From NCBI GenBank assembly GCA_024681935.1, contig JAIKZX010000077.1, positions 1 through 36,675 on the forward strand: DNA of 36,675 nucleotides. Reading direction: 5' to 3'. The notes beneath the pieces were generated by a model, which was not told the origin of the DNA, searched no databases, and was given only the letters and a program-made list of their open reading frames with translations. Position numbers and translations under genes: made by a program. Positions 12,618 to 26,161 of the stretch are shown here, one piece after another. Source of the stretch: Fretibacterium sp. GTDB lineage: Bacteria; Synergistota; Synergistia; Synergistales; Aminobacteriaceae. Within the stretch, counting starts at the first letter, position 1. Every line of letters starts with the position of its first letter.

Positions 12618-14282
12618 TCAGATCACCATTGCATCCAGGATAAACTGAATCTGCTCCTCGTTTCTCCAGTAATCCAGCCGCGGATGATAAATCCAGCCCT
12701 TCACATCCGCCGTATCCAGAAGGTCCGGGGTGGAGTTGAAGGCCAGAAGCTTCACATTGTCCACGCGCACGGAGCTGTGTCTGCCGTTTTTGCCCAGGGG
12801 TTCCACCCGGTCGCCAGGGCTGCTGGAACAATAGAAACGCGGACACGGATTGTCATTGCCAAAGGGCCCCAGCTCCGTCACCGCCTGCCAGTCAGCCATG
12901 GATATCCTTGCGGGCGACATGCTGATGGCCGAGATGACCTCCTCCTGCACGCCCACCCTTGCGAGCAGATCCTCCAGCGTCCGGGAGACCTCGTCCCAGT
13001 TCTCATTCAGCACGGAAAAGCCCGCGGCGTAGCGGTGCCCTCCCCAGGCGTCCAGCAGGTCGGATATTGTGCTGAGGATGCCCACGGCATTGCCCCCCAC
13101 AGGGACCCGCAGCGTGCCCCTTATCTTTCCCCCGACGGGGGCGGCCAGAACCACCGGGCTGCGGCGCTGAGCGCAGATCCGGCTTGCCACTCCGCTCAGC
13201 ACTCCCACCGGCCAGGATTCCCCGTACAGCACATGCCGCTCCGCGTCGGGGTCCTCGCAGATCTCGACCGCGATGCGCTCGGAAATCATCTGGCGCCGCC
13301 GGTTTGCCCGGATGAGATCACTGATGCAGGCGTAGACAGTGTCCTCGTTCCCCATTCCCAGCAGGGCCCGCACCGCGGTATCCGCGCTGGAAATGCGTCC
13401 CGGGGCGTTCAGGCACGGGATAACCCGCATGGAGAGCTGCTCCTCGGAAAGCAGCTGCCGGTTGATGCCCAGACGGTTGAGCAGCGCGCTCAGCCCCCGG
13501 CGCGGGTTTGTCCTCATGAGCCCCATTCCCTGACGGACCAGAGAACGATTCAGGCTGTTCAGAGGCATACAGTCCGAGATCGTTGCCAGAGCCACGAGAT
13601 CCAGAGCGTACTTCAGCCAGTCCCGGGAGACAATGCCTTCCTTCCATGCCCAGCACCACAGCACCGCCGTGGCGCAGAGCTTCCGTCCCTTATCCCCCCC
13701 GTCAAAGCAGGGGTTGACGATGGTGGGAAAGGTGGGGGGCTCCGCGACAGTGTGGTGATCAAACACAAAGATATCCATCCCGCGTTTTTTCAGCCTGAAC
13801 AGCAGCTCTGAGTCGTTTGTGCCGCAGTCCACCACCACCAGAGTGCTGCAGCCTTTGCCGGTGATCTCCTCCAGCACCCCGGCGTTGAGCCCGTAGCCCT
13901 GAGTGTCCCGGCGGGGGATGAAGTAGCGCACCTGAGCGGCCTTCTGGCGGAATATCTCCATCGCCAGCACCGTCGCCGAAATACCGTCCGTGTCGTAGTC
14001 CCCGTAGACCAGAATATTGCCGAAGGAACTCCTGGAATTCCACAGCTCCCGCGCGGCGGCGCTGGCGGAACCGAGGTCCATGGAGTCCATCAGTTTGTCA
14101 AACTCCGGCCGGATCCATTCCTGCACCCACGCGGTGTCGGGGGGCGTATCCCCGCTGCTGATCCGCGTCATCTCCAGAACCATTGCCGCCAGCTCGGAGC
14201 AGGGGACGCATCGCGCCAGATTCCGGGCGCTGTCATCGATCTCATACAGCCTCAGATTAGAATCTCTACAGGTCGCCAACAA
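12618..14282 (-). CDS. recJ: Single-stranded-DNA exonuclease RecJ (DHH family)
   Basis: This 554-aa protein is RecJ, a 5'-3' single-strand exonuclease used in recombination and mismatch repair. The DHH phosphoesterase motifs appear in order: YGDYDTDGISAT, VVDCGTND and FDHHT bind the metals, and GGHRYAAGFS is the DHHA1 motif. An OB-like C-terminal segment follows. The length is at the short end for RecJ, which usually has about 560-800 aa. The start is uncertain: no ATG exists near the N-terminus, and I use the TTG at 14282 (a second TTG follows directly) with AAGGGA about 10 nt upstream. The gene sits between tadA and rel in a tight minus-strand unit. Confidence 0.88.
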   Translation of the reverse strand: MLATCRDSNLRLYEIDDSARNLARCVPCSELAAMVLEMTRISSGDTPPDTAWVQEWIRPEFDKLMDSMDLGSASAAARELWNSRSSFGNILVYGDYDTDGISATVLAMEIFRQKAAQVRYFIPRRDTQGYGLNAGVLEEITGKGCSTLVVVDCGTNDSELLFRLKKRGMDIFVFDHHTVAEPPTFPTIVNPCFDGGDKGRKLCATAVLWCWAWKEGIVSRDWLKYALDLVALATISDCMPLNSLNRSLVRQGMGLMRTNPRRGLSALLNRLGINRQLLSEEQLSMRVIPCLNAPGRISSADTAVRALLGMGNEDTVYACISDLIRANRRRQMISERIAVEICEDPDAERHVLYGESWPVGVLSGVASRICAQRRSPVVLAAPVGGKIRGTLRVPVGGNAVGILSTISDLLDAWGGHRYAAGFSVLNENWDEVSRTLEDLLARVGVQEEVISAISMSPARISMADWQAVTELGPFGNDNPCPRFYCSSSPGDRVEPLGKNGRHSSVRVDNVKLLAFNSTPDLLDTADVKGWIYHPRLDYWRNEEQIQFILDAMVI

Positions 14283-14301
14283 AGATACAAAATCCCTTCA
14301 G

Positions 14302-14316
14302 CCCTCCGTCGGAGGG
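14302..14316. repeat. Short palindrome between tadA and recJ
   Basis: CCCTCCG and CGGAGGG flank a single central base, giving a perfect inverted repeat just after the tadA stop. No T-tract follows on the transcribed (minus) strand, so I do not call it a terminator. It could tune expression of recJ, whose start codon lies 20 bp downstream. Confidence 0.6.
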
Positions 14317-14320
14317 ACGC

Positions 14321-14782
14321 TTAATTTTTTTCATTCGCCCTGCGCCGCCTCAGGAAATACTCCTGCAGAAGCCAGGTACATTCCTTCGCCAGGAGACCTG
14401 ACCGGACCTGACAGCGGTGGTTCAGGCGCGTGTCATGAAGAATATTGTAAAGCGTGCCGCCGGCCCCCGCCCTGGGGTCCGCGGCGCCGAACACCACACG
14501 GCTCACCCGTGCGTTGACACACGCACCGGCACACATGGGGCAGGGCTCCAGAGTCACATAGAGGGTGCAGTCTCCCAGGTTCCAGCGTCCCAGCTTTGAC
14601 GCAGCCATCCGGAGCGCCTGAACCTCAGCATGGGCGGTGGGGTCGGTATCCTTGCGGTTGCTGCCGGTCCCCAGAACCTTCTCTCCCAGAACAACCACCG
14701 CCCCCACGGGGACATCCCCGCGTTCCAGAGCCCTGCGCGCCTCATCCAGAGCCAGACGCATAAAGGGCAGGTCGGCCGTCAT
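14321..14782 (-). CDS. tadA: tRNA-specific adenosine deaminase TadA
   Basis: This 153-aa protein is TadA, which deaminates adenosine 34 to inosine in the anticodon of tRNA-Arg(ACG). The zinc-dependent cytidine-deaminase fold motifs are present: HAE (His51, Glu53) and PCPMC (Cys81, Cys84). DVPVGAVVV is the usual N-terminal strand. The length is typical. The ATG lies 4 nt after the yhcH-like stop codon and has no good ribosome binding site, so translation is probably coupled to the upstream gene. The last codons are A/T-rich and should not be mistaken for a terminator tract. Confidence 0.95.
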   Translation of the reverse strand: MTADLPFMRLALDEARRALERGDVPVGAVVVLGEKVLGTGSNRKDTDPTAHAEVQALRMAASKLGRWNLGDCTLYVTLEPCPMCAGACVNARVSRVVFGAADPRAGAGGTLYNILHDTRLNHRCQVRSGLLAKECTWLLQEYFLRRRRANEKN

Positions 14783-14786
14783 CGCA

Positions 14787-15245
14787 TCATATACCCGGAA
14801 GCTTTACCTTCAGGACAAGCTTCCGCACCACTCCCGGCTCCTTGAAGAACACCCGGGCCTTGTGGGCATCATCCGGCATAAAGAGGACAAAGTGCCCGGG
14901 GGGGGCCTGAAGGTAGACGCCCTCACCCCTGTAGTAAGCCGTGTCCTTATCTTCCTGATAGGGCGTGGCCAGCTCCAGCTGCCTGATGATGGCGTGGCCG
15001 AACCACTCCTCGCCGCTGAGGGTGACATGAATATCCACATAGCGCCGGTGGGCTTCAAAGAGCGCGTCGCTGGCGGGGATCGTCTTCACCTCGGAGATAT
15101 CGAAGAAGATGTTGTCCCCATCGATGACGTGACGCCCCGGCGGAAGGGCAGAAAGATCGTGCTCAGCAAGGTATTTCAGCCCGGCCTTGACTCCCGGCCC
15201 CAGGCCACCGTAACGGGAAGGATACTGTATCGTTCCTAAAATCAT
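14787..15245 (-). CDS. YhcH/YjgK/YiaL family protein
   Basis: This 152-aa protein belongs to the YhcH/YjgK/YiaL (DUF386) family of small cupin-like proteins. Some members are found in sialic-acid and other sugar catabolic operons, and their exact activity is poorly established. HRRYVDIHVTLSGEEWFG and PGHFVLFMPDDAHKA match the conserved metal-site regions. An ATG further upstream would extend it to 173 aa. The ATG at 15245 instead has AAGGAG 8 nt upstream and gives the normal length. No sugar genes are adjacent; it heads a unit with tadA, recJ, rel and dtd and has its own promoter and a leader hairpin. Confidence 0.85.
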   Translation of the reverse strand: MILGTIQYPSRYGGLGPGVKAGLKYLAEHDLSALPPGRHVIDGDNIFFDISEVKTIPASDALFEAHRRYVDIHVTLSGEEWFGHAIIRQLELATPYQEDKDTAYYRGEGVYLQAPPGHFVLFMPDDAHKARVFFKEPGVVRKLVLKVKLPGI

Positions 15246-15281
15246 CGGTCCATCTCCTTCTGAAAAGATAAAACGACTCCT

Positions 15282-15306
15282 GAGCTCTTCTCCGAAGACA
15301 GAGCTC
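15282..15306 (-). promoter_or_regulatory. Leader hairpin upstream of the yhcH-like gene
   Basis: On the minus strand a 7-bp stem (GAGCTCT with AGAGCTC) continues, after a one-base bulge, into three more pairs closed by a TCGG loop. It lies between the likely transcription start (near 15315) and the ribosome binding site (near 15257). A T-rich stretch (GTTTTATCTTTT) begins 7 nt after it. This arrangement could act as a weak attenuator or as a 5'-end stabiliser. No ligand-binding fold is recognisable. Confidence 0.55.
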
Positions 15307-15321
15307 ATATTTAATCATTTA

Positions 15322-15350
15322 ATTATACGACATATTTCCCGCTGCCCCAA
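15322..15350 (-). promoter_or_regulatory. Promoter of the yhcH-tadA-recJ-rel-dtd unit
   Basis: The minus strand shows TTGGGG (15345-15350), a 17-bp spacer and a perfect TATAAT (15322-15327). It lies in the 119-bp gap between the nth stop and the yhcH-like start. This suggests that the unit is transcribed separately from lon-nth. Confidence 0.65.
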
Positions 15351-15364
15351 ATCCAAAGAACATT

Positions 15365-16057
15365 TTATCTCCTGCCGGCGTCTTCGCTGCCGGGGGCGGC
15401 CGCGGCGCAGAGCTTTGTCAGGGGGCAGGACCCGCACAGGGGGCTCCGCGCCCGGCAGACCGCCCGGCCGTGGTCAATGAGGTTGACGTGGCCCCCAAGG
15501 TAGCGTCCGGGGGGCACCTCCCGCTCCAGCAGAACAGAGATAGCCTCCGCCGGGGCTTTCGGCGGCACAAACCCAACGCGGCGGCAGATGCGCCCGATGT
15601 GGGTGTCCACCGGGAAGGCCGGCAGTTCCAGATCGAAAAGCAGCACGCAGGCCGCCGTCTTGGCCCCCACGCCGGGCAGGGCGGTGAGGTAGTCCCGCGC
15701 CCCGTCGCGGCCCCGCTCCTTCAGGCGGAGGATGGAATACTCCCCAAAATCCCGGCGTATCGTCTCCAGAATCGTCAGAATGCGCCGCGCCTTTGTCGGG
15801 GCAAGCCCCGCCGGGCGGATGGCCTCCGTCAGAGCCTCCGCCTCTGCCCCGGCGACGTCCTGCCAGCCGGGGAAGCGGGCTTTCAGCCGGCCAAAGGCCG
15901 TGTCCCGGTTGCGGTCGTTTGTGTTCTGGGACAGGACGGTCAGAATCAGTCCGTCCAGAGGCTCCCCGTGCTTCAGATCCGGCGGGTTGGCCTCGTTGTG
16001 ATACAGGTCCTCCAGGCGGTCCAGCATGGAGGCTGTCCAACGGGCAAGGGGTCCCAT
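15365..16057 (-). CDS. nth: Endonuclease III-type DNA glycosylase
   Basis: This 230-aa protein is an HhH-GPD base-excision repair enzyme that removes oxidised pyrimidines and nicks the abasic site. The helix-hairpin-helix LPGVGAKTAACVLLF keeps the catalytic lysine of the bifunctional enzymes, and FPVDTHIGR supplies the catalytic aspartate. The C-terminus has the [4Fe-4S] cluster ligands in the pattern C-x6-C-x2-C-x5-C (CRARSPLCGSCPLTKLC). The ATG follows the lon-like stop codon directly (TAGATG), so it is probably translated by coupling. A specialised member of the endonuclease III family is possible, so Nth substrate range is inferred. Confidence 0.9.
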   Translation of the reverse strand: MGPLARWTASMLDRLEDLYHNEANPPDLKHGEPLDGLILTVLSQNTNDRNRDTAFGRLKARFPGWQDVAGAEAEALTEAIRPAGLAPTKARRILTILETIRRDFGEYSILRLKERGRDGARDYLTALPGVGAKTAACVLLFDLELPAFPVDTHIGRICRRVGFVPPKAPAEAISVLLEREVPPGRYLGGHVNLIDHGRAVCRARSPLCGSCPLTKLCAAAAPGSEDAGRR

Positions 16058-18517
16058 CTACTGGTCCTTTTTGCTGCCACGGCGTGACCTTCGGCCCCCG
16101 AGCAGGTCCTTTTTCAGCTTTATATTGTCCTGCAGCATCTTTCTGAGCCGCGCCCTGACGCGCCCGTGGACGGACCCTTTGGTGTAGGAGCCGCTTTTCA
16201 GCAGCCGCCCCGCCGGCACGCCGGTCAGGATCTCAATGCCCTCATCGATGGTGCTGACGGCCCACACGGAGAATTTCCCCTCCCGGACGGCCTGGATGAC
16301 CTCCGGGTTCAGCATGAGATGGCGGATGTTGGCCTGGGGAATCATCACGCCCTGGTCTCCCGTCAGGCCCCTGAGCCTGCAGTATTCAAAGAACCCCTCG
16401 ATTTTCTCGTTGACGCCGCCGATGGGCTGGACGTTGCCGAACTGGTCCACAGAGCCCGTCACCGCGATGCCCTGCTTCAGCGGCAGTTCCGCCAGTGCGG
16501 ACAGCAGGCAGTAAAGCTCCGTGGAGGAGGCGCTGTCCCCCTCTATGCCGCTGTAGTTCTGCTCAAAGGTGATGCGGGCGGAGAGCGACAGCGGCATGTC
16601 CCGGGCGTACTGGCGCCCCAGGTAGCTGGAGAGGATCATGAGCCCCTTGTTGTGGATGGGGCCCGTCATGCGGACCTCCCGCTCAATGTTCACCACGCCC
16701 TCATGTCCCATAAAGACGTTGGCCGTGATCCGCGAGGGATGCCCAAAGCAGCAGTCCGTCAGGTCGATGACGGAAAGTCCGTTGATCTGTCCCACCACGG
16801 AGCCCGTGGTGTCCACCCGGATGACTCCGTCCTGAAACGCCCGGATCAGCTTCTCCTGATAAAGGGCGGAGCGGTAGCGCTTGTGCTCAATGGCCTTGCG
16901 GACGTGGGGAGCCCCCACGCGCTTCGCCTCCGGGGACAGAATGCCCGCCCAGGCGCTGGACTCCACCAGAAGCTCCCGCAGCCGCCCCAGCTCCACGGAG
17001 AGGAGGTTCTGGTCCCCGGCCTCCCGGCCCGCCCACTCGATGATCTCGGAAAGGGCCTCCGCGTCAAAGGGTTTCAGCCCCTCCCGCTCAAGGATGCCGG
17101 CGACACACTGAGCCATCTGCCGCTCCGTTTTTGCGCTGCGCGGCATGTCCACGTCAAAGCTTGCCCGGATTTTAAAGAGCTTCTGGAACTCCGGGTCGTA
17201 GTTCTGAAGCAGTTCGCAGATACAGGGGGAGCCGATCAGGATGACCTTGATGTTCATTTTGATGGGGCCGGGACGGAGGGAGGAGACGGGAATGGAGCCG
17301 TACTGCTCGCCCATGTTCTCGATGGCGGCCTCCTCCGTGCGCAGCAGGCGTTTGACGGCCTCCCAGGACATGAAGTTCATCAGGACCTTTTCCGCGTCCA
17401 GCACCAGAAACCCGCCGTTGGCACGGTGGAAGGCCCCGGCGGTGATGCGCCGGAAGTCCGTGTAAAGGCAGCCCTGCCGGCTCTCGTACTCCACCTTGCC
17501 GGAGAGGTTGTAGTAGGTGGGGTTGGTTTCCCACACCACGGGGGCGCCCGCCTCCGGGTCGTTGCTGACAAAGAGGTTGGCCTGGTAGCGCGAGAAGTCC
17601 AGATCGGCGGATTCGTCGCGCATGGAGGTGACGAACGCGCCGAAGTTTTCAATAACGTCCTCCGCCATGCGGGCAAACCAGGAGGAGAGGGGCCTGTTGC
17701 CGCTCCACGCGCCGCAGATGTCCGCAAGACAGGGGGCGATGGCGGCGCGGCATATCTCGGATTCCAGGCGGCTGAGTTTTTCCTTGAGCTCCTTTTCCAT
17801 GTCGCGGATGCGGCGCAGACCCAGAAGCGTCTTCTGGGAGACCTTCTCGGACAGAGCCTGATAGCGCTTCTGCCGCTTATCGGAGAGCGCCTCGAACTCC
17901 TCTTCCTTAATCTCCCGGATGATCTTCTTTCCATTCTCGTCTTTGTCCTCCACAAGCGGGATGTTGATGAATCCCTGGGGAGTCCGCTTGAGCGAGAACC
18001 GGTGTTTCGCGGCCTGGGCCCGCAGGGTCTCCATGATCGCCCCGGCCTTCTCCTGAAACTCCCTGACGTACTGGGCCTTGGCGTCCTCGTACTGGCTCTG
18101 CTCAAAGGCCTTGCTGATGGTCACCTTCAGGTCGTTCAGCAGCGCGTCCAGAGCAGAGGCCAGCTTCCGGCCCTCACCGGCGGGAACGGAAACCGCCAGG
18201 GGCTCCCCCGGTTCGTCAAAGTTGTAAAGGTACAGCCAGTCGTCGGGCACGGGAAGCCCTTTGGCCCGGCTTTTGAGACGGGCCAGGGCGTAGCTCGTGC
18301 GGCCGCTTCCGGGCTGGCCGGTCAGAAAGATATTGTACCCCCTGCCGGAGACGGCGAGGCCAAACTCCAATGCCTCCACGGCGCGTTCCTGCCCGATGGG
18401 ATGAAGGGACGGCCTGCTCCGCAGACTGTCCGTTCCCTCCAGCTTCCAGCTCCCGGGATCCTTGACCCTCCTCAGCTTATCGGGTCCCAGACTCAATTTA
18501 TCGGATTTAGACCTCAC
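16058..18517 (-). CDS. Lon-like ATP-dependent protease (AAA_32/Lon_C architecture)
   Basis: This 819-aa protein has an N-terminal AAA-type domain with FLTGQPGSGRTS (about residues 64-73), a central coiled-coil region (about 180-260) rich in Lys and Glu, and a C-terminal Lon peptidase domain. The catalytic dyad is visible: Ser662 in GDSASS and Lys705 in GGVNEKIEGFF. They are 43 residues apart, exactly as in Escherichia coli Lon (Ser679, Lys722). The Walker A lysine is replaced by arginine, which I recall as usual in this Lon-like family. It lacks the classic Lon N-terminal LAN domain. The start is a GTG with AGGCGGGG upstream. nth follows with no gap. Its substrates are unknown. Confidence 0.88.
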   Translation of the reverse strand: MRSKSDKLSLGPDKLRRVKDPGSWKLEGTDSLRSRPSLHPIGQERAVEALEFGLAVSGRGYNIFLTGQPGSGRTSYALARLKSRAKGLPVPDDWLYLYNFDEPGEPLAVSVPAGEGRKLASALDALLNDLKVTISKAFEQSQYEDAKAQYVREFQEKAGAIMETLRAQAAKHRFSLKRTPQGFINIPLVEDKDENGKKIIREIKEEEFEALSDKRQKRYQALSEKVSQKTLLGLRRIRDMEKELKEKLSRLESEICRAAIAPCLADICGAWSGNRPLSSWFARMAEDVIENFGAFVTSMRDESADLDFSRYQANLFVSNDPEAGAPVVWETNPTYYNLSGKVEYESRQGCLYTDFRRITAGAFHRANGGFLVLDAEKVLMNFMSWEAVKRLLRTEEAAIENMGEQYGSIPVSSLRPGPIKMNIKVILIGSPCICELLQNYDPEFQKLFKIRASFDVDMPRSAKTERQMAQCVAGILEREGLKPFDAEALSEIIEWAGREAGDQNLLSVELGRLRELLVESSAWAGILSPEAKRVGAPHVRKAIEHKRYRSALYQEKLIRAFQDGVIRVDTTGSVVGQINGLSVIDLTDCCFGHPSRITANVFMGHEGVVNIEREVRMTGPIHNKGLMILSSYLGRQYARDMPLSLSARITFEQNYSGIEGDSASSTELYCLLSALAELPLKQGIAVTGSVDQFGNVQPIGGVNEKIEGFFEYCRLRGLTGDQGVMIPQANIRHLMLNPEVIQAVREGKFSVWAVSTIDEGIEILTGVPAGRLLKSGSYTKGSVHGRVRARLRKMLQDNIKLKKDLLGGRRSRRGSKKDQ

Positions 18518-18604
18518 ATTGTCCCCGCCTTGCCGTCGATTTTTTTACCCCGCGAGGGGTCCCTGACTTCTAATTGTATCAAATATCTGAGCTTCAGACT
18601 GCCC

Positions 18605-18631
18605 CTCCCTGATATAACTCCCTGATATAAT
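18605..18631 (+). promoter_or_regulatory. Duplicated 13-bp element containing an extended -10 promoter
   Basis: CTCCCTGATATAA occurs twice in tandem (18605-18617 and 18618-18630). The second copy plus the next T gives TGATATAAT, an extended -10 (TGnTATAAT), about 38 bp before the TTG start of the membrane protein gene. No good -35 is visible, as extended -10 promoters allow. The duplication created the consensus TATAAT only at the downstream copy. Confidence 0.55.
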
Positions 18632-18668
18632 AAAAAGGATTAAAGGGAAAAACGAAGGCGGTGTTATT

Positions 18669-19157
18669 TTGTTCCAAAAAATACTGGATCATATTCCACT
18701 TTTCCTGCGGCCGGCCATCTTCATCAGCGGGCTGAGCGATATCTTCTCCCTGTGGCAGAGGGGGGACGTCAGGGAAAGAAGCATCCTCATCCTGGTGTTT
18801 GCCCCCATGCTGCTCTGCGGGGCGGGAATGCTGTTCAGCGTCGTTTCCTTCGTCCTGTTTGTGCTGCCCTCCTTTGTCCTGCGCGTGCTGGGCTGGGGGG
18901 TGCTCACCGCGCTCTTCGGCGCGGGGGGGCGTTACTGCTATGAGCGCATGACGGGAAAGTCCGTGTCGGGCGGCGGTCCCTCCTTCAGATCGGGCTCCTC
19001 GTCGAACGCATGGGGCGGGGGACAGCCTTACACCGATGTGAAATTCACGGAAAACGGGACGGGGAACGGCTTCAGCGAAACTCAGTCCGGCCCCTCCGCT
19101 TCCCGGCGGCAGGAGGTCCGCCAGCGCTGGTTTGAAAGGGTTCGTGGGAAGCAATGA
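18669..19157 (+). CDS. Small membrane protein of unknown function, coupled to nikR
   Basis: This 162-aa protein is not recognised. It has an amphipathic N-terminus and two strongly hydrophobic segments at about 39-65 and 67-90. They are followed by a Gly/Ser-rich linker (about 98-120) and a basic C-terminus (RRQEVRQRWFERVRGK). It starts with TTG, with AAGGCGGTG upstream. The last codons overlap the nikR start by 4 bp (ATGA), so the two are probably translated together. There is no metal-binding motif and no similarity to known nickel permeases that I can see. A role linked to nickel is only suggested by position. Confidence 0.7.
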   Translation: MFQKILDHIPLFLRPAIFISGLSDIFSLWQRGDVRERSILILVFAPMLLCGAGMLFSVVSFVLFVLPSFVLRVLGWGVLTALFGAGGRYCYERMTGKSVSGGGPSFRSGSSSNAWGGGQPYTDVKFTENGTGNGFSETQSGPSASRRQEVRQRWFERVRGKQ

Positions 19158-19600
19158 GGACGAAAGAAATCAAAGAAAGGGAGAAACTGGCGCGGTTCAG
19201 CGTCACAATCCCCGAAACGCTGGTTCATGAGCTGGACCAGAGAATTCAGAGCTCCGGAAGAAACAACCGCTCTGAGGCATTCAGGACCCTGCTGCGGCGC
19301 TATATCGCGGACGCGCGGTGGCAGGAGGCCCTGGATTCCGGCCAGGAGGGGGGCGAGGTGTATGGGACCGTGACGCTGGTGTACGATCACCACCTCCCGA
19401 ATCTGACCCGCAGGCTGACCGGCGTTCAGCACGACCACAGCGGGATCATCCTCTGCACAACTCACGTTCACGCAGACCACAACACATGCCTTGAATGCGT
19501 CATCATGCGGGGAGCCCCGCTGGAAGTGAAGAAATTTCTTGAAGCTCTGAAGGGCATCCGAGGAATCCGGAGCCTCGAGAAAGTGATTGTTCCGGATTAA
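19154..19600 (+). CDS. nikR: Nickel-responsive transcriptional regulator NikR
   Basis: This 148-aa protein is NikR, a ribbon-helix-helix repressor that senses nickel. The N-terminal DNA-binding strand and helices (RFSVTIPETLVHELD, NRSEAFRTLLRRY) are followed by the ACT-like metal domain. All four high-affinity nickel ligands of E. coli NikR are present: His93, His104, His106 and Cys112 match His76, His87, His89 and Cys95 at exact spacing. The N-terminus is longer than in E. coli by about 15 residues. It overlaps the upstream membrane protein gene by 4 bp. No nickel transporter or hydrogenase gene is in the window, so its target is elsewhere or is its own operon. A partial copy lies directly downstream. 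Confidence 0.95.
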   Translation: MRTKEIKEREKLARFSVTIPETLVHELDQRIQSSGRNNRSEAFRTLLRRYIADARWQEALDSGQEGGEVYGTVTLVYDHHLPNLTRRLTGVQHDHSGIILCTTHVHADHNTCLECVIMRGAPLEVKKFLEALKGIRGIRSLEKVIVPD

Positions 19601-19603
19601 AAA

Positions 19604-19627
19604 TCAGGGGGGGCTTTGCCCCCCTGA
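19604..19627 (+). terminator. Terminator-like hairpin 1 after nikR (TTT loop)
   Basis: TCAGGGGGG...CCCCCCTGA arms enclose GCTTTGC, giving a 10-bp GC stem with one extra G, four bases after the nikR stop. No T-tract follows on the plus strand (GAAACCCC). It may act as a weak or factor-assisted terminator or as a 3'-end stabiliser. The same hairpin recurs at 19861-19883 with the loop reversed. Confidence 0.55.
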
Positions 19628-19639
19628 AACCCCTGTCGG

Positions 19640-19857
19640 CCCGCAGGCTGACCGGCGTTCAGCACGACCACAGCGGGATCATCCTCTGCACAACTCACGT
19701 TCACGCAGACCACAACACATGCCTTGAATGCGTCATCATGCGCCCCGCAGAGCGGGTTTCCCAGCGAGGAGCCCCGCTGGAAGTGAAGAAATTTCTTGAA
19801 GCTCTGAAGGGCATCCGAGGAATCCGTAGCCTCGGGAAAGTGATTGTTCCGGATTAA
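19640..19857 (+). pseudogene. Truncated duplicate of the nikR 3' half (nikR')
   Basis: Positions 19640-19742 are identical to nikR 19407-19509, and 19768-19857 match 19511-19600 with two substitutions, one silent and one Glu to Gly. Between them is a net 24-bp insertion that keeps the frame open and would add PAERVSQR after Met-Arg. The fragment lacks the whole DNA-binding domain and has no ATG, GTG or TTG start in frame near its 5' end. It does encode all four nickel-ligand residues. It is most simply a recent tandem duplication remnant. Expression as a metal-domain-only peptide would need an unseen start. Confidence 0.85.
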
Positions 19858-19860
19858 AAC

Positions 19861-19883
19861 TCAGGGGGGCAAAGCCCCCCTGA
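19861..19883. terminator. Hairpin 2 between nikR' and the convergent gene (AAA loop)
   Basis: TCAGGGGGGC and GCCCCCCTGA form a perfect 10-bp stem around AAA. On the minus strand it is followed by GTTTTAA, so it could terminate the convergent gene ending at 19922. On the plus strand it lacks a T-tract. It is the reverse-loop version of the hairpin after nikR. Confidence 0.55.
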
Positions 19884-19890
19884 AACCCCC

Positions 19891-19973
19891 GATGCAGACT
19901 TGGTATGGTCGGTTCACGGACTTACTGTCCGGTTAAGTCCGGCCACAAGGGCATCCAGGCCCTTGTCTGCATC
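19891..19973. repeat. Cluster of nested perfect inverted repeats at the convergent junction
   Basis: GATGCAGAC (19891-19899) and GTCTGCATC (19965-19973) are perfect inverted copies. Inside lie CGGACTTA/TAAGTCCG (19917-19924, 19934-19941; 9-nt loop) and ACAAGGGC/GCCCTTGT (19945-19952, 19959-19966; 6-nt loop). Apart from a 2-nt overlap the three stems are compatible and would give a branched three-way fold. The cluster covers the last 17 codons and the stop of the 673-aa protein gene. Confidence 0.7.
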
Positions 19974-21943
19974 AGGCCGATATCCAGATAGACGGCGAGC
20001 ATGGAACGGCTGGGATACCCCGATGAAGACAGCTCCTGGGGAAGGGGAATCTGTATCTGCAGCCGTGAACGCGGAACGGAAAGCTCCGGAGTGCGGCGGA
20101 GGGAGAGGAGCGTCTTCCCTCCTGTGAAGGCCGAGGCCCGCACCAGAGACACTGGAGGGATATCCCGCGCCCAGACGTCCAGCTCAAGCCCATTCATCAG
20201 GCAGAATCGCATCAGATAAAGAATATCGTCCGCCGAAAAGGGAATGGAGGCATCAACGATGATGTGCGTCAGCGTCTCACGGTGGAGGGCCCAGACCGGC
20301 GGGATGACGGAGCGTATGTCTCGGCCGCGCGTCACCTGAGCGGATTTCAGCGTGGGAGGCAGCGACTGGCCCGGCGCAAGGGCCCTGTACAGCACCAGCC
20401 CGTCAAGGAACCGGGGCGGCGCGGTCCACTGGGCAGACGAGCGCATGGTCCTCTCGTTCCAGACGCACTGCACCACGATGGCGGAGTCCTGAAGGTGGCT
20501 TGTAAAAGGCCCCCCCAGGGTGGCGTTGATGAGGAAACTCTCCCGGTTGGGCGACTCCAGCGCCAGGGTGGGGTGATAGATCCCCAGAAACCCCTGGTTG
20601 ATGGTCCGGGAGGGCTGCATCACAAGCTTGTGCAGATGAAAAGCAGAGATATCGAGGCAATAGATATCCCCCTCGGCGGAGGGAAAAAACGTCCAGATGT
20701 CCTTCAGACCGGACCACAGGGGACTGCCTGCAGAGGCGGTTTTTTCCCCCAGATCCACAGTCAGGCAGAATATATCCCCGCGTTCCGTGAGAACGAACAG
20801 CTCCCCAAGGGGGGACCACATGATGTCCCGCGGTGCCGGGACCTCCGTGAAGAAGGACTCCCGGCGGTTGGAGACGTTCAGAAAGTACACCCGGGCGTTT
20901 CCCCGGTCTGCCACGGCCAGCCATTCCCCAAAGCCGTCCAGCGCCACAGGCTCAAACAGCATCTCCGCGGCGGGTGCTGTCCACTGGCTCAGGAGCTCCG
21001 GTGCGCCCTGCCCTGCAGAATCGATCCGGTAAAAAGACACTATCCGCCCCACGGGGTCCGAGATGGCAAAGGTGTTCTCCGAAAGAGCTTCCGCGTCGGA
21101 GACGTCCGAGTCCAGATGGCCTCTCAGGTCCAGCGAGACGGGGGTTTCCCCGTCCAGGGGACAGGTGAAGAAGTACACATCCCCCTCCCCGCAGAACAGG
21201 GTAAAGGAACGGTCTCCATGGGGCAGCACTGTGACAGGTTTAGGGACGTCAAAGGTGCGGTAGTCTATCTTTGGGGGCGCGGCCTGTTCCCCGTCCCCGG
21301 AAGGGCCCGGTGCGGAAATCCCGGAAGCATCTGCCGGCCGGAGGTACACGCGGTCGCCCAGCGTGTCCGCAGCACAGAAAACATTCCCCAGCGCCTCAGC
21401 CTTGCCCAGCCCCCTGATGTTGAACGGGTGCGCGAGGGGCAGCTGCATCTCCGTCTGAAGGTCCGGCTTTGAAAGCTGCCAGCGGGGTGAGAGAGGCCGT
21501 GTCCCCATGACAATGCGGAGCAGACGGTCCTGCTCCACAAAGCTTCGCGCAATGCGGGGCACGGAGTTGTCCATGGGGCGGACCTCAAGGTAGTTGGCCA
21601 GCGCGGCCCGGGCTCTGTCCCCGTCGCCGGTGCGCTGAAGCGTCAGTCCGCTCAGGAGGTAGTAGTCCACCAAATAGGTGTTCGCCCGCAGGGCCCGGTC
21701 CAGATAATCCAGCGCGCTCCAGTAGTCACGTTCCATAAAGTGCAGATAGGCCCGGGTGAACTGCCGCTCGGACTCATCCAGCTGGGCGCGGGGCATCTCC
21801 GCCGCCAGGGCGGAACTCAGAGAGAAGAAATCCCTCCGGGACGCTGCCGGCGGATTATCCGCCGCTTCCTGGCGGGGATTTTCCAGAGGAGCGAGCCCGG
21901 CCAGGCAGACCGCCATGACCGCAAGAAGAATTGTCCGCTTCAT
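19922..21943 (-). CDS. Exported protein with TPR-like and beta-propeller-like regions, function unknown
   Basis: This 673-aa protein is not recognised as a named family. The frame is open to 22072, but the ATG at 21943 opens a signal peptide (MKRTILLAVMAVCLAGLA) and has GAGAGG about 6 nt upstream. Residues about 70-140 look like two TPR repeats (AYLHFMERDYWSALDYLDRA, then AALANYLEVRP). Residues about 200-480 contain repeated short strand motifs such as EWLAVADRGNARVYFL and GELFVLTERGDIFCL, as in NHL-type propellers. A C-terminal part (about 560-673) has THIIVDASIPFSADD, faintly like a von Willebrand A fold. It follows tRNA-Asn and its terminator and converges on nikR. A role in periplasmic protein assembly is only a guess. 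Confidence 0.75.
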   Translation of the reverse strand: MKRTILLAVMAVCLAGLAPLENPRQEAADNPPAASRRDFFSLSSALAAEMPRAQLDESERQFTRAYLHFMERDYWSALDYLDRALRANTYLVDYYLLSGLTLQRTGDGDRARAALANYLEVRPMDNSVPRIARSFVEQDRLLRIVMGTRPLSPRWQLSKPDLQTEMQLPLAHPFNIRGLGKAEALGNVFCAADTLGDRVYLRPADASGISAPGPSGDGEQAAPPKIDYRTFDVPKPVTVLPHGDRSFTLFCGEGDVYFFTCPLDGETPVSLDLRGHLDSDVSDAEALSENTFAISDPVGRIVSFYRIDSAGQGAPELLSQWTAPAAEMLFEPVALDGFGEWLAVADRGNARVYFLNVSNRRESFFTEVPAPRDIMWSPLGELFVLTERGDIFCLTVDLGEKTASAGSPLWSGLKDIWTFFPSAEGDIYCLDISAFHLHKLVMQPSRTINQGFLGIYHPTLALESPNRESFLINATLGGPFTSHLQDSAIVVQCVWNERTMRSSAQWTAPPRFLDGLVLYRALAPGQSLPPTLKSAQVTRGRDIRSVIPPVWALHRETLTHIIVDASIPFSADDILYLMRFCLMNGLELDVWARDIPPVSLVRASAFTGGKTLLSLRRTPELSVPRSRLQIQIPLPQELSSSGYPSRSMLAVYLDIGLMQTRAWMPLWPDLTGQ

Positions 21944-22002
21944 CCTTATCCTCTCCCTCACGATGCCTGATTTTTGTTTTCTGAGTGCAGTCTCCTGACC
22001 TG

Positions 22003-22030
22003 AAAAAAAATCCCGCCTCACGGGCGGGAT
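22003..22030 (-). terminator. Rho-independent terminator of tRNA-Asn
   Basis: ATCCCGCC (22010-22017) and GGCGGGAT (22023-22030) form a perfect 8-bp stem with a 5-nt loop. On the minus strand it is followed by a run of eight T. It lies 34 bp after the tRNA 3' end. Confidence 0.92.
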
Positions 22031-22063
22031 TCTATCGAACACCGGTCTTACCCGGATAATTTC

Positions 22064-22139
22064 TGGCTCCACGACCAGGACTCGAACCTGGAACCTAGTG
22101 ATTAACAGTCACCCGCTCTGCCGATTGAGCTATCGTGGA
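22064..22139 (-). tRNA. tRNA-Asn (anticodon GTT), CCA encoded
   Basis: The minus strand folds into a full cloverleaf. The acceptor is TCCACGA with TCGTGGA (22133-22139 and 22068-22074). The D arm contains AGCTCAATCGGCAGAGC, the anticodon loop reads CTGTTAA with GTT, and the T arm carries GGTTCGAGTCC. A G discriminator and a genomic CCA follow (22067-22064). GTT reads AAC and AAT, hence asparagine. It has its own consensus promoter and terminator, so it is a monocistronic tRNA gene. Confidence 0.97.
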
Positions 22140-22152
22140 ACGCAACAAAGGA

Positions 22153-22181
22153 ATTATACTCCGCCTCATGGGGCTTGTCAA
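22153..22181 (-). promoter_or_regulatory. Perfect consensus sigma-70 promoter of tRNA-Asn
   Basis: On the minus strand TTGACA (22176-22181), an exact 17-bp spacer and TATAAT (22153-22158) match the sigma-70 consensus at every base. The -10 ends 13 bp before the mature tRNA 5' end, so only a few leader bases would be trimmed. Confidence 0.93.
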
Positions 22182-22270: not shown

Positions 22271-24622
22271 ATGGAGACGGCAGCTTCCGGTTTGCTGAAT
22301 ATTCCGGAGCTCATCGCTAAGGAACTGAAGGTGGGTGCCGGACAGGTGAAGGCCGTTCTGTCCCTTTTTGAGGATGGCTGCACGGTCCCCTTTATCGCGC
22401 GCTACCGCAAGGAGGTGACGGGCTCGCTGGACGAAACCGTTATCACCGCGATCCGTGACCGCAGTGAAAAGCTGGCGGAGCTGGGCAAGCGCCGGACGGC
22501 TGTCCTGGAGTCCCTGAGGGAACGGGAGCTGCTGACGGACGAGCTGAAGGCCGCCGTCATGGGCGCGTGTACAATGACCGCCCTTGAGGATATCTATCTT
22601 CCCTACCGGCCCAGGCGGCGGACGCGCGCTTCCATTGCCATGGAAAAGGGGCTGAAGCCGCTGGCGGACCTTTTGCTGGCTCAGGCGCCCGGCACGGATC
22701 CCCGGGCCGCGGCCCTGTCCTTTGTGAACGTGGAAAAGGGCGTCGCTGGGGCGGAGGAAGCTCTGGCCGGCGCCATGGACATCATCGCGGAGCAGGTCAG
22801 CGAGGACGCCGGCGCCCGTCAGGAGATCCGGAGGCTCTTTGCCCGGAAGGCCGTACTGACCAGCACCTGTGTCAAGGGCATGGAAAACGCGGAGGAGGCC
22901 CAGAACTACCGCGATTATTTTGAATGGGAGGAAGTGGCGGCCGCCATGCCCTCCCATCGTGTACTGGCCATCCTGCGGGGCGAGCGGGAGGGCTGTCTGA
23001 GCATCAGCGCCGCCCCGCCGGAGGAGGAGGCTCTGGCGATCCTCAAAGGCCGTTTTGTGCGGGCGGGGGGCGGCGCGGCGTGCTCCCGTCTGGTGGGGGA
23101 GGCTGTTGAGGACGGTTACCGCCGTCTGCTGAAGAAATCCATGGAAAACGAGCTGAGGGCCGCTCTTAAGAAGCGCGCCGACACCGAGGCCATCCGCGTC
23201 TTTGCCGGGAACGTCCGGGAAGTTCTGATGGCTGCGCCTCTGGGGCAGAAGGCGACGCTGGGCATCGACCCGGGCATCCGCACGGGCTGCAAGGTGGTCT
23301 GTCTGGACCGGCAGGGGAAGCTGCTGCACCATACGGTGATCTTTCTCCATGCCTCTGAAGCCAGGCGCCGGGCCGCGGCTCAGACGCTCCGGGAGCTGAC
23401 GGAGAAGTACCATATTGAGGCGATTGCCGTGGGCAACGGGACGGCGGGCCGGGAGACGGAGGCCTTTGTCCGGGAGCTGGGTCTCCCGGTGGCGGTGGCC
23501 TCTGTCAATGAGAGCGGCGCGTCCATTTACTCCGCCTCGGAGGCCGCCCGGCGCGAGTTCCCTGATCAGGACGTCACGGTGCGGGGGGCTGTCTCCATTG
23601 GCCGCCGCCTGATGGACCCTATGGCGGAGCTGGTGAAAATCGACCCCAGGTCCATCGGTGTGGGCCAGTATCAGCACGACGTGGACCAGAAGGAGCTGAA
23701 ACAGGCTCTGGACGATGTGGTGATTCACTGCGTCAACGCCGTGGGGGTGAACATCAACACGGCCAGCCCGGAGATCCTGTCCTGCGTCTCCGGCCTGAAC
23801 AGGACCGCCGCGGCGCAGATTGTGAAGTACCGCGAGGCCAACGGGCCCTTCCCCAGCCGCGAGTCGGTGAAGAAGGTCCCCCGGGTCGGCCCCAAAACCT
23901 GGCAGCAGGCCATCGGCTTTCTGCGGGTTCAGGGCGGCGAGAACCCTCTGGACGCGAGCGCCGTCCACCCGGAGAACTACGCCACTGTCGGGCGCATGGC
24001 TCAGGCGCTCTCCTGCTCTGTGGCCGACCTCATCGCCAGGCCGGAGCTCCGCAGCCGGATCAGGCCGGAGGACTTTGTGTCGGAGACGGCGGGTCTGCCC
24101 ACGCTGAAGGATATTCTGGCGGAGCTGGAACGTCCGGGCCGGGATCCCCGGGCCGGGTTTGAGGCTTTTTCCTTCGATCCCGACGTCCACACGCCGGAGG
24201 ACCTTCATCCCGGCATGATCCTTCCCGGGCTGGTGACAAACGTCACGGCCTTCGGGGCCTTTGTGGACATCGGGGTTCATCAGGACGGCCTTGTTCACAT
24301 CAGCCGCATCGCGGATATTTACGTTGAAAACCCCGGCGCCCATCTGAAGCCGGGGCAGCCGGTCCGGGTGCTGGTGCTGGAAGTGGACCGTCAGCGCGGC
24401 CGCATCAGCCTTTCCATGAGAAAATCCGACATGGAAAGGAAGGGGCTCAGTTCCGGAGGGGGGGAGCCCGGCAGGGGGCCGGCGCGTCCGTCCGGCCGGA
24501 ACCGGGAGAAGGAGGCCGGCATGACCCTGGGTTCCCTTCTGCGCGATCAGATGCAGCAGAAATCAGACGGCCGCGGGGGCAGGCAGCCCTCAGGCAGAAG
24601 GAACAGGCAGGGGAGGGAGTGA
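22271..24622 (+). CDS. tex: Tex-family RNA-binding transcription accessory protein
   Basis: This protein of about 783 aa is Tex, a cytoplasmic nucleic-acid-binding protein tied to transcription and stress tolerance. The layout is: Tex N-terminal helices (FIARYRKEVTGSLDE), a YqgF/RNase H-like domain (TLGIDPGIRTGCK, about residue 330), helix-hairpin-helix motifs (VNINTASPEIL to PRVGPKTWQQ, about 492-555) and an S1 domain (NVTAFGAFVDIGVHQDGLVH, about 646-717). The tail after 718 is Gly/Arg-rich and basic, likely to bind RNA. The frame extends to 22175, but that part covers the promoter. The ATG at 22271 has AGGGAG 9 nt upstream, and an ATG at 22262 is the alternative. The flavoprotein gene follows after 7 bp. 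Confidence 0.93.
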   Translation: METAASGLLNIPELIAKELKVGAGQVKAVLSLFEDGCTVPFIARYRKEVTGSLDETVITAIRDRSEKLAELGKRRTAVLESLRERELLTDELKAAVMGACTMTALEDIYLPYRPRRRTRASIAMEKGLKPLADLLLAQAPGTDPRAAALSFVNVEKGVAGAEEALAGAMDIIAEQVSEDAGARQEIRRLFARKAVLTSTCVKGMENAEEAQNYRDYFEWEEVAAAMPSHRVLAILRGEREGCLSISAAPPEEEALAILKGRFVRAGGGAACSRLVGEAVEDGYRRLLKKSMENELRAALKKRADTEAIRVFAGNVREVLMAAPLGQKATLGIDPGIRTGCKVVCLDRQGKLLHHTVIFLHASEARRRAAAQTLRELTEKYHIEAIAVGNGTAGRETEAFVRELGLPVAVASVNESGASIYSASEAARREFPDQDVTVRGAVSIGRRLMDPMAELVKIDPRSIGVGQYQHDVDQKELKQALDDVVIHCVNAVGVNINTASPEILSCVSGLNRTAAAQIVKYREANGPFPSRESVKKVPRVGPKTWQQAIGFLRVQGGENPLDASAVHPENYATVGRMAQALSCSVADLIARPELRSRIRPEDFVSETAGLPTLKDILAELERPGRDPRAGFEAFSFDPDVHTPEDLHPGMILPGLVTNVTAFGAFVDIGVHQDGLVHISRIADIYVENPGAHLKPGQPVRVLVLEVDRQRGRISLSMRKSDMERKGLSSGGGEPGRGPARPSGRNREKEAGMTLGSLLRDQMQQKSDGRGGRQPSGRRNRQGRE

Positions 24623-24629
24623 GTCCATC

Positions 24630-25937
24630 ATGGAGCGTTTTGATACCCTTGTGATTGGCGGCGGACCGGCGGGGCTGATGGCGGCCATTCAGGCGTCGTC
24701 CGTCGGGGAGCGGGTCCTGCTGCTGGAGAAGAACGCCTCTCTGGGGGAGAAGCTGCTTCTGTCCGGGCGGGGGCGCTGCAATTTCACCAACGGCGAGGAG
24801 AATACCAACGCCTTCCTTGACCGCTACGGGGAGAAGGGCCGGTTCCTCTGCTCCGCCTTCAGCCGTTTCGGCCCGGCTCAGACGCTGGATTTCTTTCACA
24901 GCAACGGCGTGGAGACGGTGATGGAGCGCGGAAAGCGCATTTTCCCCGTCCCGGGGAACGCGGACACAGGCGGCCAGCGGATTCTGGATGTGCTGCTGCT
25001 GCTGTGCAAAAAGGGGAACGTCCGGATTCTCCGCTGCGCGAACGTGCGGGCCATGAAGGTCAGCAGGGCGGACTCCCGCGTGGAGCGTGTGATCACGGAT
25101 CGGGAGGAACTGGAGGCGGCGCGCTACATCATCGCCACGGGGGGAAAGTCCTACCCCAAAACGGGCTCGACCGGGGACGGCTACCGGTTTGCCCAGGCCG
25201 CCGGCCACACCATTGTCCCGACCTGTCCCGCCCTTGTGCCCATCCGGACGCGGGAGACATGGGTCAAACTGGCCCGGGGCTGCAACCTTCGGAACGTGAA
25301 CCTGACGGTCCTGATCAATGGCCGGAAGGCGGAGGAGCATTTCGGCGAGATGGAGTTCACCAACTTTGGGGTCAGCGGCCCCATTGTGATGGAGATGAGC
25401 GCGCGCGTTCCGGACTGGCTGGACACGGCCGCGGCGGAGGGCAAGCCGGAGGGGGGCGTGCAGCTTTCCATTGACCTCAAGCCGGCCCTGCTCCGCGGGA
25501 AGCTGAGGACCCGCATAGCACAGGATTTCCAGACCGGGGGGGCCCGCCGGTTTGACGGCGCGCTGCGGCGGTTTGTGCCGGGGTCTCTGATCCCGATGAT
25601 TCTGGAGCTCTCTGACGTGCCGCCGGACAAGCCCGTGGCCTATATTTCCAGCGAGGAAATCGATGAGCTGGCGCGGCTCCTGAAGGACATCCGTCTGACC
25701 ATCAACGGTCTCTGGGGCTTCAACCACGCCATTGTCACCCGGGGCGGCGTCAGCCTGAAGGAAGTGGACCCCCGGACGATGCGCTCCAGACTGTGCGGCA
25801 ACCTTTATTTCGCGGGGGAGGTGCTGGACCTCAACGGCCCCTCCGGCGGATTCAATCTTCAGGTCTGCTGGAGTACAGGGTATGTGGCCGGGAAGGGGGC
25901 CGCCCCGGACGTTTCTGAGACAGCCGCCACGGACTGA
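24630..25937 (+). CDS. HI0933/YhiN-family flavoprotein (BaiN-like)
   Basis: This 435-aa protein is an FAD-dependent oxidoreductase of the HI0933 family. It begins with the FAD-binding beta-alpha-beta motif LVIGGGPAGLMAA. It has the family signature LSGRGRCNFTN, an internal ATGGKSYPKTGSTGDGYRFA and a C-terminal FAGEVLDLNGPSGGFNLQ that closes the FAD site. Family members have been annotated as aminoacetone oxidases, and one, BaiN, acts on bile acid intermediates. None of this can be assigned here. It starts 7 bp after tex and is probably co-transcribed. Confidence 0.9.
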   Translation: MERFDTLVIGGGPAGLMAAIQASSVGERVLLLEKNASLGEKLLLSGRGRCNFTNGEENTNAFLDRYGEKGRFLCSAFSRFGPAQTLDFFHSNGVETVMERGKRIFPVPGNADTGGQRILDVLLLLCKKGNVRILRCANVRAMKVSRADSRVERVITDREELEAARYIIATGGKSYPKTGSTGDGYRFAQAAGHTIVPTCPALVPIRTRETWVKLARGCNLRNVNLTVLINGRKAEEHFGEMEFTNFGVSGPIVMEMSARVPDWLDTAAAEGKPEGGVQLSIDLKPALLRGKLRTRIAQDFQTGGARRFDGALRRFVPGSLIPMILELSDVPPDKPVAYISSEEIDELARLLKDIRLTINGLWGFNHAIVTRGGVSLKEVDPRTMRSRLCGNLYFAGEVLDLNGPSGGFNLQVCWSTGYVAGKGAAPDVSETAATD

Positions 25938-26161
25938 TTCTCAGGGGGCCTGGGAGTCCCGCCCCCGGTTCCCGCAAAGGGGCTCCAAAAGGGCTCCAAA
26001 AGGCCTCCATGATGTCCCCTGCGCCGGGGCCGGTGCGGTGCGGGCCTGCGGCGCGCCGGGACAGGCCCGCCGGGGGGCTTCCCGGAGGGTCAGCCGGCTC
26101 CGGGGCAGCCTCAAAAGCTGTCCGGTTCCTGCAGCTCCTCATCTTTGCGAAGCTCCCTGCC
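25938..26161. repeat. Convergent gap with a duplicated 11-bp unit and a GC hairpin
   Basis: This 224-bp gap between two convergent genes holds no supportable gene. GGGCTCCAAAA is repeated in tandem at 25980-25990 and 25991-26001. GGGGGC (25944-25949) pairs with GCCCCC (25961-25966), with GGGA/TCCC inside, to form a hairpin just after the flavoprotein stop. No T-tract follows it. The rest is GC-rich without a clear signal. Confidence 0.7.

Follow-up and report, generated by a model that had tools for sequence, protein, structure and literature searches.

A partial nikR copy associated with two short dispersed hairpin repeats in Fretibacterium

The partial second copy of nikR that lies behind the intact gene in a Fretibacterium contig probably has no function and arose as a by-product of E1 and E2, two short dispersed repeats of hairpin form that appear to be active in this lineage. 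As a gene fragment the copy is ordinary, and the 24-bp repeat family represented by E2 is of more interest. We analysed a stretch of 36,675 nucleotides (the window), contig C181 of assembly G000 (2.3 Mb in 226 contigs, 98% complete, 5.8% contaminated), and compared it with three genomes of rumen bacteria from the same genus (G001, G002 and G003), all four being metagenome-assembled drafts with completeness of 81-100%. Some 9 kb of the window (13026-22162) recur on another contig of G000, C195. As this match is only ~82% identical, a second species in the bin is the most likely source of C195, and the presence of a second version of one chromosomal region at this identity indicates that G000 is probably a mixture of two Fretibacterium species. 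The nikR gene of C195 occupies the same syntenic place as that of the window; we rejected its assignment as a paralogue and treated it as the orthologue from the second genome.

The intact nikR (19154-19600, forward strand) encodes 148 residues comprising an RHH_1 and a NikR_C domain, and its QH/THVH/C ligand motif aligns with NikR of known structure. The 194 bp at 19407-19600 (copy 1) recur on the same strand at 19640-19857 (copy 2) with a 24-bp insertion and three substitutions, the copies being ~98.5% identical and their match far above chance. A recent partial tandem duplication had been proposed from the sequence alone, with 103 identical bp (19407-19509 and 19640-19742) followed by about 90 bp with two changes, and at the assembly level we found it located as described; one more changed base lies at the edge of the insertion. 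The two other changes in copy 2 are a silent G to T relative to 19570 and an A to G relative to 19578, which replaces Glu by Gly. The reported reversal of the hairpin loop was recovered as well, with CTTTG downstream of copy 1 and CAAAG downstream of copy 2. Rfam gave nothing credible over 19100-20000, and a mir-378 match in this interval was sub-threshold and dismissed as chance.

A comparison with related genomes, which had been suggested as a check, revealed a single nikR at the syntenic site in G002, G003 and C195 and the duplication in none of them, indicating a lineage-specific event. Wherever the two copies differ by a substitution, at three bases, the orthologues have the base of copy 1, which is thus ancestral there, and copy 2 is derived. 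The native flanks sit outside both copies, as a true tandem would give, and because the right flank of copy 2 is native and shared with G002, the new junction is CCCCTGTCGG/CCCGCAGG at 19639/19640. This junction resembles an E2-E2 joint found once in G001 (CCCTGTCGGCCCACAG), but the likeness to that joint (CCTGTCGG/CCCGCAG) is a short match and suggestive only.

Copy 2 has an open frame from before 19600 to a stop at 19857, kept through the insertion, with all four nickel-ligand codons (QH, THVH, C) unchanged, in agreement with the sequence-only reading. In a profile search it scores as NikR_C with 48.9 bits and covers profile positions 17-72 of 77; positions 1-16, at the start of the domain, and the first strand of the nickel domain are missing. 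The combination of an N-terminal ribbon-helix-helix domain with a complete NikR_C that marks a NikR protein is thus present in the intact gene and absent from copy 2, whose lack of a DNA-binding domain had been recognised before. No in-frame ATG, GTG or TTG precedes the ATG at 19738, which is itself past the ligand codons, consistent with the earlier statement that no start is visible, and we detected no clear Shine-Dalgarno sequence. As it has neither a DNA-binding domain nor the opening strand of the nickel domain, and lacks a usual start before the ligands, copy 2 is very probably a dead fragment and would not be expressed. The single-copy relatives and the confinement of the changes to copy 2 support the dead remnant that had been put forward as one of two fates; a functional NikR fragment we discarded on the missing start codon and the missing first strand.

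The hairpin E1 terminates both copies, lying at 19590-19639 behind copy 1 (TTCCGGATTAAAAATCAGGGGGGGCTTTGCCCCCCTGAAACCCCTGTCGG) and at 19847-19890 behind copy 2, where it is followed by the native right flank shared with G002 (CGATGCAGAC; both forward strand). At both nikR ends it reads TTCCGGATTAAA(A/C)TCAGGGGGG...CCCCCCTGAAACCCC, a strong GC hairpin of ~45 bp with a stable fold. E1 is dispersed in all four genomes (12 copies in G000, 40 in G001, 17 in G002 and 4 in G003 with one mismatch allowed in the 18-bp head) and is absent from the ends of the orthologous nikR genes. Similarity to the three orthologues stops at 19590, at the beginning of E1, and a C-terminus that reads VQG(A/V) in the orthologues becomes VPD-stop, from which it follows that E1 supplies the nikR stop codon; the last codons and the TAA lie inside the element. 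Since the orthologues already have CAGGGGG at that site, and G002 also TGAAACCCCC, native sequence may have given rise to E1 or recombined with it. A classic terminator was rejected, as the hairpin is present and a T-tract after it is not. A further E1-like head, the third in the window (GGACTGATTCTCAGGGGG), lies at 25931-25948 and has no matching second arm.

Duplicated gene ends were also found at other E1 copies. Direct repeats of at least 16 bp span E1 at 8 of 39 E1 places, which represent about four or five independent sites, as compared to 1.8% of 2000 positions drawn at random from the same loci. In contig C27 of G000 each of four E1 copies is accompanied by a repeat of a 27-bp gene end. 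Direct repeats of 37-39 bp lie across E1 in C195 and at the orthologous site in G002 (C77), another G002 contig (C35) has one of 29 bp, and contig C123 of G003 is a weaker case. In the cases read, the apparent 3' end of a gene including its stop is repeated beyond E1. With several further E1 copies lying between duplicated gene ends, the nikR event seems to belong to a class that recurs. Positions 1700-2200 of G000 contig C27 form a tandem array of ~105-bp units, each consisting of a gene 3' end and an E1 copy.

The 24-bp insertion in copy 2 (19744-19767, forward strand; CCCGCAGAGCGGGTTTCCCAGCGA) is the second repeat, E2, which adds the residues PAERVSQR and whose empty counterpart in copy 1 is at 19509/19510. 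Within three mismatches of the consensus CCCGCRRAGCGGGYTTCCCRGCGR there are 6 copies in G000, 66 in G001, 8 in G002 and 16 in G003, whereas 27 other genomes gave 6 matches, the same number as a reversed-pattern control in those genomes. Scanning 84,980 species with a strict pattern returned matches in Fretibacterium metagenome-assembled genomes only, in a collection from which the window's own genome may be absent; the strict pattern had no match in the viral contigs of IMG/VR, and no identical donor was found within the G000 assembly. Some E2 copies stand alone, others are nested in E1 loops or form tandem arrays with a period of exactly 24 bp. The element folds into a single 5-bp stem, and at the stem pair 4-10 the 76 distinct copies include G-C (53), A-T (15) and A-C (5), with 69 paired copies as compared to a mean of 58.2 and a maximum of 65 in 10,000 shuffles. 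As the copies were collected with a consensus pattern, invariant columns partly reflect this way of selecting them, but the G-C/A-T exchange does not. Two subfamilies can be distinguished by their tails, CCCRGCGR and CCTGCCGR, with columns 19 and 21 co-varying most strongly. G001 contains long intergenic mosaic arrays of E1 and E2 modules with E2 units in E1 loops (C119, 29715-29882; C63; C36).

E2 has no stop codon in any of its six frames, and all six are used, yielding peptides such as PAERVSQR, PQSGFPS, RAGFPA, SLGNPLCG, RWETRSAG and AGKPALR; with a length of eight codons, its insertions thus leave genes readable. In G000, G002 and G003 together, 16 of 20 matches with up to two mismatches lie in frames of recognisable genes, one is that in the nikR copy, and the remaining three are unassigned or upstream of a gene. 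The host genes are unrelated in function, and Pfam domains span or flank the element in HisF, a dihydropyrimidinase (G001), an FAD oxidoreductase, ABC ATPases (TOBE domain), an Era-type GTPase, methylmalonyl-CoA mutase, an aminotransferase, a SpoIIE phosphatase, a polyphenol oxidoreductase, a cyclophilin, IF-2, MreC and Tex, some of these cases, e.g. methylmalonyl-CoA mutase and Tex, being three-mismatch matches. The tex gene of G003 has four E2-like units near its N-terminus (contig C2, 9998-10093); the corresponding site in the window, after the METAAS codons (22287-22292, forward strand), is empty.

Occupied and empty sites could be paired between the genomes. E2 is present in hisF of G003, the site being empty in G001 and G000 (+24), in the dihydropyrimidinase gene of G001 with an empty site in G000 (+24), and in era of G002 with empty sites in G000, G001 and G003 (+24), while two units occupy the oxidoreductase gene of G002 and its counterparts in G000 and G001 are empty (+48). 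In the aminotransferase gene, G000 and G002 have E2 at one shared site (+24); G001 and five outgroups lack the eight residues, and at this point G003 shows a two-residue difference of an unrelated kind. HisF and hydantoinase of solved structure exhibit an eight-residue gap at the same points as E2. The ends of E2 have 3 to 9 bp in common with their targets (GCG, CCCG, CCAGCGG plus CC), as in nikR copy 2, where the left target is ATGCG and E2 ends in GCG, and the sites show no constant target duplication. From these comparisons we infer that E2 is a dispersed hairpin repeat that has been mobile.

Searches for a Y1 transposase (PF01797) and a reverse transcriptase (PF00078) were negative in G000-G003 and positive in control genomes, and both were dropped as candidate mobilisers of E2; no E2-mobilising gene was identified in these four genomes. 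E2 might move by single-strand hairpin capture at short homologies, or by an unknown enzyme or RNA route, an RNA intermediate being compatible with the negative PF00078 search. The distribution of the elements suggests how the locus may have formed. E1 is found in both copies and would have reached nikR before or during the duplication, whereas E2 and the three substitutions are restricted to copy 2, which points to the order E1, then duplication, then, or together with it, E2 and decay. In this order, E1 would first have come to the 3' end of nikR, where it provided the stop codon. The 3' half of the gene through E1 would then have been duplicated in tandem, possibly by template switching if the polymerase halted at the E1 hairpin and resumed synthesis farther upstream at a short homology, and E2 would have entered copy 2 in frame, either afterwards or as part of the duplication.

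We weighed this scenario against a joining error, in which two strain variants of nikR, with and without E2, were assembled head to tail across the repeated hairpin. The mixed bin, the 226-contig assembly and the dispersed repeats at the junction speak for such an error, but we consider it unlikely, as the flanks are arranged as in a true tandem, the same kind of duplication occurs at other E1 copies in other genomes, and the junction CCCCTGTCGG/CCCGCAGG lacks a counterpart in the other contigs read, so that an artefact would need joining reads. It is very improbable that copy 2 is expressed as a nickel-binding NikR domain forming mixed tetramers with NikR, the other fate envisaged by the sequence-only reading. 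Even though the frame is open, the four ligand codons are kept and NikR_C is still recognised, such a peptide would have to do without a start codon before the ligands, a good ribosome-binding site and the beginning of its domain (profile positions 1-16); E2 and the Glu to Gly change arose in copy 2 itself, and relatives lack it altogether.

The mobility of E2 could be doubted if the repeat were a local tandem unit produced by slippage, its scattered single copies being convergent. Near-identical single copies at unrelated loci, in both orientations and in conserved genes with empty orthologues, together with the restriction to this genus, make this reading improbable, even if tandem arrays with an exact 24-bp period exist (G001, C119) and a gltD-like target already contains CCAGCGG, the tail of E2.

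Elhai and co-workers (2008, Genome Res 18:1484) reportedly described small dispersed repeats (SDR) of 21-27 nt in Nostoc and its relatives. SDRs are hairpins with compensatory changes that occur in nested and tandem copies within one clade, and an RNA intermediate has been proposed for them; we know of no enzyme that mobilises them. E2 resembles SDRs in being very short (24 nt), dispersed and clade-confined, in its compensated hairpin, its nested and tandem copies, its recent mobility as judged from occupied and empty sites, and the lack of a known mobiliser. In contrast to SDRs, E2 has an unrelated sequence in another phylum, is for the most part found within protein genes in three of the four genomes, and has 3-9 bp in common with its targets rather than a fixed site such as HIP1. 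PMC3116915 and PMC4390886 cite the SDR work of Elhai et al. 2008. Rickettsia palindromic elements (RPE; Ogata et al. 2000) are ~150 bp long and lie in frame in many unrelated genes (PMC10969869), some reportedly with a CGTC tag (PMC3733652). E2 is likewise a palindromic repeat found in frame in many unrelated genes, but with 24 bp instead of ~150 bp, a single 5-bp stem and no CGTC tag it differs from RPEs.

REP and REPIN sequences are short GC-rich hairpins at high copy number that have a GTAG tag and are accompanied by RAYT (Y1, IS200-like) transposases. Both E1 and E2 are short GC-rich hairpins at high copy, E1 being REP-like and mostly extragenic in the loci read; unlike REP/REPIN, E2 is commonly intragenic, has neither a GTAG nor a CGTC tag in its consensus, and occurs in four genomes without a Y1 transposase. 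Searching the literature on palindromic repeats in Fretibacterium or Synergistetes, we found nothing relevant. We regard E2 as a new family within a known kind of element, SDR-like with RPE-like behaviour and an unusual gene tolerance, in a phylum for which we found no such family described. The chances seem evenly balanced that it is one of the smallest mobile DNA elements known, a hairpin of 24 bp, or eight codons, with all six frames open, which would be spreading through essential genes across a bacterial genus and adding eight residues to every host protein, with no transposase or reverse transcriptase of a known type involved.

To our knowledge, the case for very small mobile repeats has been made in cyanobacteria, and that for repeats invading genes in frame mainly in Rickettsia. 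In rumen Synergistota, a gene-tolerant family of 24 bp whose sites are cleanly empty in close relatives would make the question of how DNA so short moves tractable, and would also allow one to ask how often proteins gain eight-residue insertions in this manner; the two nikR copies provide the E2 site before and after insertion in one genome. The duplications linked to E1, in turn, suggest that strong hairpins located behind genes give rise to partial copies of them.
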